DNA of 64,000 bases, from NCBI RefSeq assembly GCF_014279775.1, contig NZ_CP047961.1:496001-560000 (forward strand), in the 5' to 3' direction. The notes under the pieces are model-generated. The model was not told the origin of the DNA, did no database searches, and worked only from the letters and a program-made list of their open reading frames with translations. Of the stretch, positions 2,135 through 5,687 are shown one piece after another. Origin of the DNA: Synechococcus sp. PROS-9-1 (GTDB lineage: Bacteria > Cyanobacteriota > Cyanobacteriia > PCC-6307 > Cyanobiaceae). Position 1 is the stretch's first letter. The number at the start of each line of letters is the position of its first letter. A program made the position numbers and the translations under genes.

Positions 2135-2162
2135 AAATACCAGGATCCAGATTTGAACTGGG
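2135..2162 (-). repeat. att-like direct repeat: partial copy of tRNA-Phe 3' end
   Basis: These 28 bases match 5582-5609 with two mismatches, in the same orientation. The 16-base core CCAGATTTGAACTGGG is identical. The second copy is the T-arm and 3' acceptor side of the intact tRNA-Phe gene. A displaced copy of a tRNA 3' end is the classic footprint of site-specific integration, with the repeats acting as the two att sites. Confidence 0.7.
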
Positions 2163-2216
2163 AGCATTTCGACAATTTGCCCCTTCAAGCACTCAAATTG
2201 GTGTAGCAGTGATGCT

Positions 2217-2240
2217 AAAAAGCGCCCAGGAGGCGTTTTT
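2217..2240 (+). terminator. Weak hairpin with T-run
   Basis: An A-run followed by GCGCC, a 5-nt loop, GGCG and TTTTT forms a short stem with one bulge. It could terminate in either direction. It lies just inside the left att-like repeat, with no obvious upstream plus-strand gene. The stem is short, so confidence is low. Confidence 0.35.
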
Positions 2241-2314
2241 GCTTGCTGCTGATCTACCTCTCTCAAGCCGTAGAGCAAGTTGTTTGGTAGGTCCAACGCA
2301 TTCCTGAGGGATGC

Positions 2315-2473
2315 ATGGATCTCAGAACTCTATCCCTCGCCCGTTTCTTCAGGTTTGATGAGCCTGCCTTTGATCTTTTTCAGCTTCCTGGTAACCATGC
2401 GAGTCAGTTCTTTCTACGGGTGGGAAGCCAATCCATTGGTCGATACCTAAATGTTTCTGCTATCCGTTATTGA
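2315..2473 (+). CDS. Possible small protein (52 aa)
   Basis: An ATG at 2315 with GAGG about 7 nt upstream opens a 52-codon frame. The product has an aromatic-rich start (ARFFRFDEPAFDLFQLPG) and ends SAIRY. No known domain is recognised. It is the only candidate coding stretch between the left att-like repeat and the next gene. The composition looks coding-like, but the frame is short and a chance ORF cannot be excluded. Confidence 0.35.
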   Translation: MDLRTLSLARFFRFDEPAFDLFQLPGNHASQFFLRVGSQSIGRYLNVSAIRY

Positions 2474-2525
2474 CGCCACTGGTCTCAGTTTAGAAGCATT
2501 GCATCCGCCTCTTTCACGCTTGGCT

Positions 2526-3188
2526 TTATCGCTTCATATATGCATTGGCATACTGATCAATAACGCTTGCGTCGTAATGATGGGAGGATAAGACTTCCGT
2601 AATCCTATGTGCCATGGTCCTAGATGTTGCCGAATATCGATGGCCGAGTGGTTTGAGTCTTTTGCCCTGATCTCTCAATTTAGGGATCTTTGCCGCTCGA
2701 TATTGCTCTTCTGCAAGGTCGATCATATCTCCACTGCTATTTTCAAGCCACCAGTGGTAGTCATTTGTTTCTTCAAGTTTGCGTGAACCTCTGATGCAGT
2801 CAAAATCTTTCCAAAAGAAGCGATGTAGCGTATGCATGGTAAATAAGTGCCACCCTCTCGTTTGATTGAGTGAAGTAGGCAGAGGGTCTTTTGATGAGTG
2901 TTCTTGATTCTCTATTTGGATTGCCCCACCAAATTCTCTTTCAATCTCAACAGTTGAATACAACCACTTTTTCCCTTTTGACCTTTTCTCTTGCATCATG
3001 CCCATCGGGTTGATGAAGAGATCCAGGAAGCACTGAGAAATCGTCAGGATATTTTGATCAGTTGAAGGGATTGATAGGTCGCCATCGCAAAATTGATCAG
3101 ATGGAAAGAGTCCATCCGTGTGCTGCTTTAGGACCCTATTTCCGTTAAAACAGAGATGACCAGATCGACTAGAAAGAAGAAAACTCAT
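2526..3188 (-). CDS. Hypothetical protein with phage-like HWWL...ID..EEQ motif
   Basis: A 220-residue protein starts from ATG at 3186-3188, without a clear ribosome-binding site. Residues 144-163 carry YHWWLENSSGDMIDLAEEQY. This resembles a pattern (H-W/Y-W-L ... ID-x-T/A-xEQ) that I recall from small uncharacterised phage and bacterial proteins; the resemblance is from memory and not tested. Arg, Lys and His are plentiful in the last 60 residues. No signal peptide or membrane segment is seen. It lies inside the tRNA-Phe-bounded islet, which fits a phage or mobile origin. Function unknown. Confidence 0.6.
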   Translation of the reverse strand: MSFLLSSRSGHLCFNGNRVLKQHTDGLFPSDQFCDGDLSIPSTDQNILTISQCFLDLFINPMGMMQEKRSKGKKWLYSTVEIEREFGGAIQIENQEHSSKDPLPTSLNQTRGWHLFTMHTLHRFFWKDFDCIRGSRKLEETNDYHWWLENSSGDMIDLAEEQYRAAKIPKLRDQGKRLKPLGHRYSATSRTMAHRITEVLSSHHYDASVIDQYANAYMKR

Positions 3189-3400
3189 GTGGCTTGGTTA
3201 GAGCCTTCCTGATTGATTTATTTCACTTATCTTACCTCGCCACTGGGTGATTTCATCCGTTTTTAAGGACTTCCTCGCATCTCATTCGTTGATTTCATTG
3301 CACTCATCCATTCATGCTCAGGATCTGGAGGCCCTGGCAATGCCTTCGGCCAGACCGATTGTTTGAAATCTTGGACGTCTGAGTGGAGGCAGTGTTCTTC

Positions 3401-3940
3401 TCATGCCTCGGATGCATTCCAGTCAAAGACCAGAACCATTTGTACCCTTAGTTGAGCTGCGGCTTCCAGAGCAGGAGTGAGGCTGCGTTGCCGTTGAGGG
3501 TTTTGTTTCATTACGTACTCAAGGTCCTGTAAGAGCATGGAATTCATATTCATTGCAAGAATGCATTGAGCATTTTCACAGTGATTCTGTTTGATGTCGT
3601 TGTACATGGTGACAACATCCTTGATGTAATCAATGAAGACCATGCTTGATCGCTCCATTGCTAAAATCTCTTCTTTGTTCCATCCAAGAGTCGTAATCAG
3701 TTGATGGCATGCTTCCAGAGCGGCGATGGTGTTTTCGGTTTCTTTAAAGGATGTCTTGATCAATGCATCGATATTTGCAATGCAAAAATGCATCCCATAC
3801 ACCATGTTGTCGGCTTGCTCTAAGTCGTCTTGAATCCTGTCCCAGGTAATGCGTGCAATACGGTCGTCGGGTTGCAGCTCTGCAAGAGCTGTTAATTGAA
3901 GAGACCGTGACATCAGTTCTTTATTTAGCTTGCTGTTCAT
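3401..3940 (-). CDS. Hypothetical helical protein
   Basis: A 179-residue protein starts from ATG at 3938-3940, with only a weak AGAG upstream. The sequence looks mostly alpha-helical, with regularly spaced Leu, Ile and Met and several Cys and Met residues in the centre (MVYGMHFCIANIDAL, ENAQCILAMNMNSM). It ends in a VLVFDWNASEA strand-like tail. No catalytic motif, membrane helix or known domain is recognised. It belongs to the islet and runs in the same direction as most of its neighbours. Confidence 0.6.
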   Translation of the reverse strand: MNSKLNKELMSRSLQLTALAELQPDDRIARITWDRIQDDLEQADNMVYGMHFCIANIDALIKTSFKETENTIAALEACHQLITTLGWNKEEILAMERSSMVFIDYIKDVVTMYNDIKQNHCENAQCILAMNMNSMLLQDLEYVMKQNPQRQRSLTPALEAAAQLRVQMVLVFDWNASEA

Positions 3941-4066
3941 TGATCTCTAGACAAAATAAGAGTCGACGAAATGGTTGTTTAGCGTAACCGCTTCTTCAAT
4001 GGCGAATTTTGCTTGGGTCGCGCTCCGTCGTCCCTCGGCGTAGGTCTCAGCTCCCCGCGGATAGGA

Positions 4067-4330
4067 ATGGAGTGGCTGCTGAGGAATGATGCGCTGCGGC
4101 CTCTTCGGCAAGATGGAAGCTTCAGCGTTCGCTTTATGACGTACGAGCAAGAGGTCATCATCAAGTGCGCTATCAAAGGCACGCTTGGCGGTCTCGACAG
4201 GAAAATGACCGCAGAGGAGCTTGATGAGTTGCTGAACGGCTCCCAGGATTGGAGGAAGCACTTGGTGATTGAAGAGATCACAGAGGTGGCCACCATCCAT
4301 GCAGGGCGCCGTCGTCCAGAAATCGACTAG
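4067..4330 (+). CDS. Uncertain small gene, opposite-strand alternative exists
   Basis: The plus-strand frame from ATG 4067, with AGGA directly before it, gives 87 residues with a plausible charged second half (MTAEELDELLNG, RKHLVIEEITEV). A minus-strand frame over 3947-4300 is also open and also looks partly coding (TQAKFAIEEAVTLNNHFVD). I cannot decide between them from sequence alone. The plus frame has the more protein-like composition, while the minus frame fits the local gene direction. Neither product is recognised. Confidence 0.35.
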   Translation: MEWLLRNDALRPLRQDGSFSVRFMTYEQEVIIKCAIKGTLGGLDRKMTAEELDELLNGSQDWRKHLVIEEITEVATIHAGRRRPEID

Positions 4331-4396
4331 GGATGAAGGCTCTGCCCTTTGGCAGCAGATTCGGAATTGGCCAACTGTTCAGCGATGTTTTGCTTT

Positions 4397-4430
4397 CCTC
4401 TGAACTCCAATAGCTTTTGGAGTTCAGAGG
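4397..4430. repeat. Perfect 14-bp inverted repeat
   Basis: The arms at 4397-4410 and 4417-4430 are perfectly complementary (CCTCTGAACTCCAA and TTGGAGTTCAGAGG) around a 6-base TAGCTT loop. No T-run follows on either strand, so it is not a standard intrinsic terminator. Possible roles are an RNA hairpin, a protein-binding palindrome, or a recombination or replication signal of the islet. It lies between small unrecognised genes. Confidence 0.85.
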
Positions 4431-4523
4431 AGATTCAATTGTCTAGGCGATCGTTCTACACCTATGAGATCTAGTGCTGAGGAAGCGACTTGAAGCTGTA
4501 AAGGGTTACCTCGCCTTACGTTT

Positions 4524-4700
4524 TTATGATCCTTTGCCCATCGCTGGACCTCGGGCGAACTCTGAGTAGAGCGCCGCTGCCTCATTGGACATCCCTTTGT
4601 CCCAAAGGGTTTGCGCTCTTTCCTGCATCCATAACCCTGCTTCGCTCCAGATTTGTCGCTTAAGAGTGTCTTGAAGATGCTTCTTATCTTGCTGATGCAT
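4524..4700 (-). CDS. Hypothetical small protein (58 aa)
   Basis: From the ATG at 4698-4700 the product is MHQQDKKHLQ-, a short charged protein with a likely helix containing W and E residues and ending ARGPAMGKGS. A GTG three codons further upstream is an alternative start. The amino-acid use looks coding-like. No known domain is seen. It is one of several small minus-strand genes in the islet. Confidence 0.45.
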   Translation of the reverse strand: MHQQDKKHLQDTLKRQIWSEAGLWMQERAQTLWDKGMSNEAAALYSEFARGPAMGKGS

Positions 4701-4837
4701 GCCTTTCACAACATTTTGAGGTTGTATAGGCGCCCGCCAACTGGGAATCGGCAGCGGTTTTTACCAGAACAAAAAACTTTCGGATCCGATCTCAGTTCGT
4801 TCCGCTCATTGGCGAATGTTTCCTGCGCCCAGCTCTC

Positions 4838-5005
4838 TCAAGATTCTTCCGTCGGTTGGAGTTGATGAATAGAACTGCAGTTGAGGTCAGACCGCTTCGA
4901 TTCCTCCTCCGCCCTCATCAGTCTCTCTACCAGGTTGAGGGTGTCGTTGTTGGACAACTCTCCGTCTTTGCCCCATTTGAGACTGGATAGGTCGGTGGGA
5001 GACAT
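4838..5005 (-). CDS. Hypothetical small protein (55 aa)
   Basis: An ATG at 5003-5005 opens MSPTDLSSLKWGKDG-, a short acidic and helical protein with LNLVERLMRAEEESKR in the middle. The frame stays open upstream to a TTG at 5072-5074, but the extension looks less protein-like. Not recognised. It is the last gene before the terminator-rich stretch and the tRNA-Phe gene. Confidence 0.45.
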   Translation of the reverse strand: MSPTDLSSLKWGKDGELSNNDTLNLVERLMRAEEESKRSDLNCSSIHQLQPTEES

Positions 5006-5233
5006 TTGGATCTGAATACGTCGTCTAAGGAAAATAAGGGCACTGAGATCGCTGTTGTGGCAATGCTCCCACAAGATTCACTGAAGAAATTCTGAAATCA
5101 GTATCCGTTCGATACACAACTGAATTCACTGCTGATTTGGGATCGAAGAGTCACCAGGTGTCCGTCCCTACACAAGAGTTCTTACGGATACATAAGACTC
5201 TGTTTGTTCCTGGTTTGGGAATGCACGGCAAGG

Positions 5234-5264
5234 GGGAGGGTTGTGAGAGACCCTCCCTTTTTTT
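5234..5264 (+). terminator. Intrinsic terminator
   Basis: GGGAGGGT (5234-5241) pairs with ACCCTCCC (5250-5257) around an 8-nt loop and is followed by seven T. It is a clear plus-strand intrinsic terminator, although no plus-strand gene lies immediately upstream. Confidence 0.85.
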
Positions 5265-5381
5265 GGTCCGCTGACGACCTCATAGGGATTTAGTGCTTGT
5301 TCCTACAAATGAGTTCAGTTTGATACACAAGAATCTCACCAGCCTCTTGGGGTGGAATCCAAGGGGAATGCGTCGAACTGG

Positions 5382-5410
5382 GGAGGTCTGGGGAGACCTT
5401 CCTTTTTTTT
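5382..5410 (+). terminator. Intrinsic terminator (second copy)
   Basis: GGAGGTCT (5382-5389) pairs with AGACCTTCC (5394-5402), with one bulged T and a GGGG loop, followed by eight T. It is a second plus-strand terminator close to the first, again with no assigned gene. Confidence 0.8.
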
Positions 5411-5584
5411 ATGCATTGGTTAAGGGGAGTTCTGGCTTTGCTTTGTGTTTAAAGAGTTCTCAGAACATTCCCAACCGCTCCAATGCCTATTGGGGATGGA
5501 GAGGAAAATCTTATCTAGCAGTGAAAAGCCAGTCGCTACAGCGCATGCGTTTCAGCAACGTGCTTTTAATGGCGTTTTGGGAAA

Positions 5585-5657
5585 TGCCAGGACCCAGATT
5601 TGAACTGGGGACACGGCGATTTTCAGTCGCCTGCTCTACCAACTGAGCTATCCCGGC
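5585..5657 (-). tRNA. tRNA-Phe (GAA)
   Basis: A 73-nt cloverleaf. The acceptor GCCGGGA pairs with TCCTGGC (one G-U), the anticodon loop reads CTGAAAA with anticodon GAA, and the T-arm is CCCAGTTCAAATCTGGG. CCA is not encoded. The gene is intact, and its 3' end is duplicated at 2135-2162, marking it as an integration target. Confidence 0.97.
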
Positions 5658-5687
5658 ACGTCGCTTTCACGACACCGGAATCTTAAA

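Follow-up and report, generated by a model that had tools for sequence, protein, structure and literature searches.

How a cluster of three genes of no assigned function came to lie between a copy of a tRNA-Phe 3′ end and the intact tRNA gene, and whether it can still move, is the question raised by a 3.4-kb islet left of comF in the 64,000-nucleotide stretch of DNA analysed here (the window). An earlier note, made from the sequence, had taken the islet for the product of tRNA-targeted integration, and for either a satellite-type element mobilised in trans or a decayed one. Our comparisons indicate that it is very probably what remains, fixed and degraded, of an integrative element whose insertion at the 3′ end of tRNA-Phe preceded the divergence of the sampled genomes of this Synechococcus lineage. 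The features on which this reading draws are collected in Table 1.

Table 1. Features of the tRNA-Phe islet and its borders, in window coordinates
Feature	Position	Strand	Evidence or remark
Left-flank gene, 85 aa, no assigned function	1866–2123	−	Directly abuts tRNA-Phe in empty-site genomes
Distal att scar (copy of tRNA-Phe 3′ end)	2135–2162	+	26/28
Element-end inner arm	2163–2196	+	Scar and arm compared with L130
Fossil element end and integrase 5′ end	2170–2352	+	nhmmer E=4.6e-10, alignment, spacing
Islet gene 1, 220 aa, no assigned function	2526–3188	−	Conserved in 8 genomes
Islet gene 2, 179 aa, no assigned function	3401–3940	−	Conserved; broken in L052
Islet gene 3, 87 aa, no assigned function	4067–4330	+	Conserved
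Putative remnant of second, younger insertion	4451–5583		Absent from L047–L052
Cargo fragment	4524–4709	−	61% to stretch of intact element L127
Cargo ORF	4838–5074	−	69–75% to parts of intact elements L127 and L130
Repeat module A, RNA-like, with a terminator	5136–5272	+	Common to SP2 element
Repeat module B, in tandem with A	5274–5411	+	Common to SP2 element
tRNA-side arm	5558–5583	+	Matches arm of L127/L130, not that of L047–L052
Intact tRNA-Phe(GAA), integration target	5584–5658	−	att core copy 5582–5609

The tRNA-Phe target, its scar and the empty sites

ARAGORN and Rfam both recovered an intact minus-strand tRNA-Phe(GAA) gene, and the islet therefore occupies its 3′ side, as the earlier note had it; Rfam found nothing beyond the tRNA. 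The 28-base near-repeat described in that note was borne out as well, the scar being identical to the intact copy at 26 of 28 positions, in direct orientation and at a distance of 3,447 bp. The best 28-mer match obtained in random sequence of like composition (60 sequences of 56 kb) was 21/28, and an 81-nt query around the scar matched only itself and the tRNA gene across the whole 2,273,940-bp genome. That the scar might be a stretch of an ordinary conserved gene, a doubt raised at the outset, was rejected because the left-flank gene is complete without it; the longer start, which extends this gene to 1866–2192, merely reads through tRNA-derived sequence.

We compared the locus with its counterpart in 27 relatives, in all of which (27/27) tRNA-Phe adjoins comF. 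The empty sites for which the earlier note had advised searching were found in 12 of them (L038–L040, L053–L057, L059 and L063–L065), the homologue of the left-flank gene lying directly against the 3′ end of tRNA-Phe. The same site holds integrase-bearing elements in other clades. L061, where the site is occupied by 7.4 kb, has a near relative with an empty site, L065, and the collinear flanks of the two (94.3% identical on the left, 96.2% on the right) meet exactly at ATGCCAGGACCCAGATTTGAACTGGG, which this occupied/empty pair fixes as the att core. By this comparison insertion duplicates a core of ∼26 bp of the tRNA-Phe 3′ end, the distal copy being the scar. The islet thus has both the direct repeat at its borders and the empty sites in relatives by which tRNA-targeted elements are generally recognised, and the 12 natural empty sites, together with att arms common to intact integrase-bearing elements, support the proposal of tRNA-targeted integration.

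An integrase fossil and its intact relatives

The islet had been described as lacking an integrase. This holds for an intact gene, but the 5′ end of one persists as a fossil beside the scar. Scar and inner arm together (60 bp) share 90% identity with the scar-side end of L130, an intact element of a sister genus (blastn 1.7e-16), and a longer scar-side stretch matches L127 (3e-26). In a second Synechococcus clade (L041–L044, L058, L060 and L062) the scars of L043, L044, L058 and L060 are followed by a truncated integrase gene, L041, L042 and L062 being more degraded. A DNA profile of the stretch inside this clade's scars, up to the integrase start and including its first codons, detected the fossil in the window and gave matches at the corresponding position in L047, L048, L049 and L051 (1e-10 to 1e-5); the match was weak in L052 (0.005) and reached only 0.5 in L050. 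Empty-site genomes did not rise above background with this profile and the reversed control was empty. The start codon expected at 2332 is ATC in the window and ATG in L048 and L049, and its distance from the scar is 170 bp, compared with 168–175 bp in intact tRNA-Phe elements. Since no intact integrase lies inside the borders and a 5′ fossil is all that is left of one, we file the islet as a remnant, not as an active element.

Intact integrase-bearing elements were found in other Synechococcus and in a sister genus. Full-length integrases of 463–475 aa lie just inside the tRNA-Phe scar in SP2, L127, L130, L128 and L061, and three of these, L127, L130 and L061, show tRNA-Phe at the opposite border. 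More distant integrases lie between a tRNA-Cys scar and tRNA-Cys in L132 and L134–L136; the duplicated 3′ end measures 23–33 bp in these four, and the integrase starts 137–162 bp inside the scar. Residues R299, K331, R407-H408 and Y445 are invariant, and most members have a GH motif; with the literature, this pattern fits a tyrosine-recombinase-like enzyme. Profile searches with the family were negative, giving no significant Pfam match and no match to PDB sequences, and viral-contig and phage searches returned nothing; hhalign against Phage_integrase proteins gave a colinear but non-significant alignment, its E-value of 0.066 being close to the 0.099 of an unrelated control. The integrase was present in 36 of 400 genomes of the family and in 4 of 291 genomes of the phylum, those four all belonging to the same family, so that in the sampled cyanobacteria it occurs only in this picocyanobacterial family. 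An integrase of this kind, encoded by the element itself, would have joined the element, as circular DNA, to the tRNA gene by recombination, and this step would have restored the tRNA-Phe 3′ end.

A published family of tyrosine integrases from Prochlorococcus and Synechococcus, ‘cluster158946', adjoins tRNA-Phe or tRNA-Cys, is missed by PHROG profiles, travels with variable cargo and often, not obligatorily, has a small serine recombinase nearby (PMC10187409). The intact relatives described here show such traits: they lie at both tRNAs with duplicated tRNA ends, their integrase context matches, L127 and L061 carry a serine recombinase/resolvase (PF00239), and L130 has one as judged from its sequence. 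The window copy, in contrast, is fixed, spans 3.4 kb, keeps only the 5′ end and upstream region of an integrase, and yielded no small serine recombinase within the islet. The same two tRNAs, and the resolvase in L127 and L061, lead us to class the islet as a probable fossil of this element, a likeness drawn from the published description. In kind there is nothing unusual about it: it would be a well-resolved fossil of an element described only recently. PMC10187409 regarded the tRNAs as likely integration sites and termed the mechanism not yet known; the site inferred there can now be given at sequence level, with the att core and its two arms, examples of the site both empty and occupied, and a constant distance from scar to integrase. 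The att sites and the integrase form a pair that is directly testable by a laboratory recombination assay.

Tycheposons are tRNA-bordered cargo islands of picocyanobacteria that carry a tyrosine recombinase. As cited in PMC10872708, they are Prochlorococcus elements that target tRNAs; the islet is like them in its tRNA borders, cargo and type of host, and would be set apart by the statement in PMC10187409 that the tRNA-Phe/Cys integrases are distinct from those of tycheposons. The islands of marine Synechococcus in PMC2441476, defined as at least six genes and mainly by composition, likewise hold, close to tRNA genes, accessory genes whose functions are unknown; the islet differs in being smaller and in having a defined origin.

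Conservation, age and number of insertions

Every one of the eight lineage genomes (the window, L047–L052 and SP2, which is L126) has islet genes 1–3 in the same position, and gene 1 is present in 8 of 31 genomes of the genus, exactly the window clade. The result that the earlier note had named as a refutation, the same genes in most relatives, was thus obtained within the lineage but not outside it; from this distribution we conclude that the islet is old, not absent. Measured against the window copies, dN/dS of the three genes was 0.03–0.20, demonstrating purifying selection, at dS values of ∼0.4–1.3 (2.0 for the broken L052 copy), while an antisense control ORF gave values above 1. The minus-strand ORF at 3947–4300 was rejected as a gene, its dN/dS exceeding 1 and its relatives carrying internal stops. 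The scar agrees with the tRNA end at 27 of 28 positions in L048, 25 in L049, 24 in L047 and SP2, and 20 in L050 and L052; in L051 it could not be recovered at 20/28 or better. Conserved cargo beside eroded scars points to an old insertion retained on account of its cargo: the integrase would have been lost later and the scar worn down, leaving three cargo genes trapped and retained by selection. If so, integrase loss, scar erosion and purifying selection on trapped genes would together show how mobile cargo can turn into a permanent part of a Synechococcus genome.

As the earlier note had found, the islet genes are unrecognised, none of the ORFs giving a significant match in Pfam, PHROG or NCBIfam, and a single-sequence AlphaFold model of gene 1 reached a pLDDT of 35, too low to be of use. 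A gene 1 homologue (59%) lies in a sister-genus locus (L129:8811-12440) with a repeat module and a 487-aa recombinase-like gene, which weakly matches the phage-integrase SAM domain; the locus also has an 84-aa gene common to the SP2 and L127/L130 elements.

Whether the insertion is shared with the second clade was judged from a tree of four concatenated flank proteins. A single insertion predating the split from that clade, inherited by both and lost in the genomes between, would account for the homology of the scar-adjacent sequence in the two; we nevertheless think it unlikely, since the second clade stands apart from the window clade, is sister, with full support, to the empty-site genomes L059 and L064, and does not share the islet cargo. 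Two separate insertions are the simpler reading, and with L061 added, as well as the second layer that the window and SP2 have (below), the insertion events seen at tRNA-Phe in the genus number at least four. The tRNA-Phe islands of two Synechococcus clades contain the same 83–86-aa protein (L058:14549-14809, L062:10179-10430 and L046:3110-3364), which suggests exchange of cargo between islands.

We think it very unlikely that the islet is satellite-like and non-autonomous, and that an integrase encoded at another locus still excises and moves it in trans. The lack of an intact integrase, a scar still 26/28 with a scar-side end ∼90% conserved in the window, and the related integrases of sister strains would all suit such an element, but the same genes are fixed at the same place in all eight lineage genomes with no empty site among them, the scars have eroded to 20–25/28 in L047, L049, L050, L052 and SP2 and past recovery at 20/28 in L051, and the islet's own genome contains no homologue of the tRNA-Phe element integrase. 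Phage satellites such as PICMI and VEIME (PMC10803314, PMC11389934) are likewise small and without full autonomy; in the islet, however, we found no recognised phage-derived interference or packaging gene, and gene 1 had no match in phage or viral collections. The comparison accordingly argues against mobility today, and of the two options in the earlier note it is decay that the integrase fossil, the eroded scars and purifying selection on the cargo favour. Local duplication or gene conversion without an integrase, the genes having arrived by other means, can yield short tRNA fragments and would suit genes with no recognised mobility function, but is hardly credible given an element-end arm and integrase start adjoining the scar at the exact spacing, and integrase-bearing elements at the same site in other clades.

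A second, younger layer at the same tRNA

The degraded-remnant reading applies to the part of the islet next to the scar. The element does span scar to tRNA, as in the earlier note, but falls into two layers, 2163–∼4450 and ∼4451–5583. From the end of the conserved islet to tRNA-Phe is ∼60–110 bp in L047–L052 and 1.1 kb in the window. Within this extra segment, 4530–4764 and 4896–5122 match cargo of L127/L130, and 5157–5408 matches the SP2 element, in a different order. SP2, the closest relative, has the order old scar, islet genes, new scar and 475-aa integrase, the new scar lying at L126:11176 (23/28) and the full-length integrase at L126:11373-12800. SP2 is a MAG and this element is split over two contigs, cargo running to the end of the first and the next, L046, ending its own cargo at tRNA-Phe; we infer the join between them. 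The SP2 layout and the window segment therefore point to two insertions, one after the other, at a single tRNA. The later element, a member of the same family, would have reused the restored tRNA-Phe and then been mostly deleted, leaving 4451–5583; its scar was not found in the window and has presumably been deleted.

Two layers of cargo at tRNA-Phe are thus seen in the window and in SP2. They raise the prospect that this tRNA acts as a ratchet, one integrase family inserting repeatedly at the same restored picocyanobacterial tRNA end, each lost integrase stranding a layer of cargo that selection keeps, and the sequence of layers, read outward from the tRNA, recording their age; we regard the case for this generalisation as evenly balanced.

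The SP2 element also carries an orotate phosphoribosyltransferase (pyrE) gene at L126:13119-13667, with a very strong match to the phage phosphoribosyltransferase family phrog_32468 (E 2e-87). The repeat modules of the window belong to a terminator-bearing repeat of ∼125 nt, absent from Rfam, which has two subtypes, often in tandem A–B (window 5136–5272 and 5274–5411; G000:C1:608892-609015). It may represent a small RNA carried by islands or, alternatively, a recombination module. A covariance model placed it in 19 of 31 genomes of the genus; those copies that were inspected fall for the most part in variable regions, and several are 0.5–1.4 kb from tRNA-Ser.
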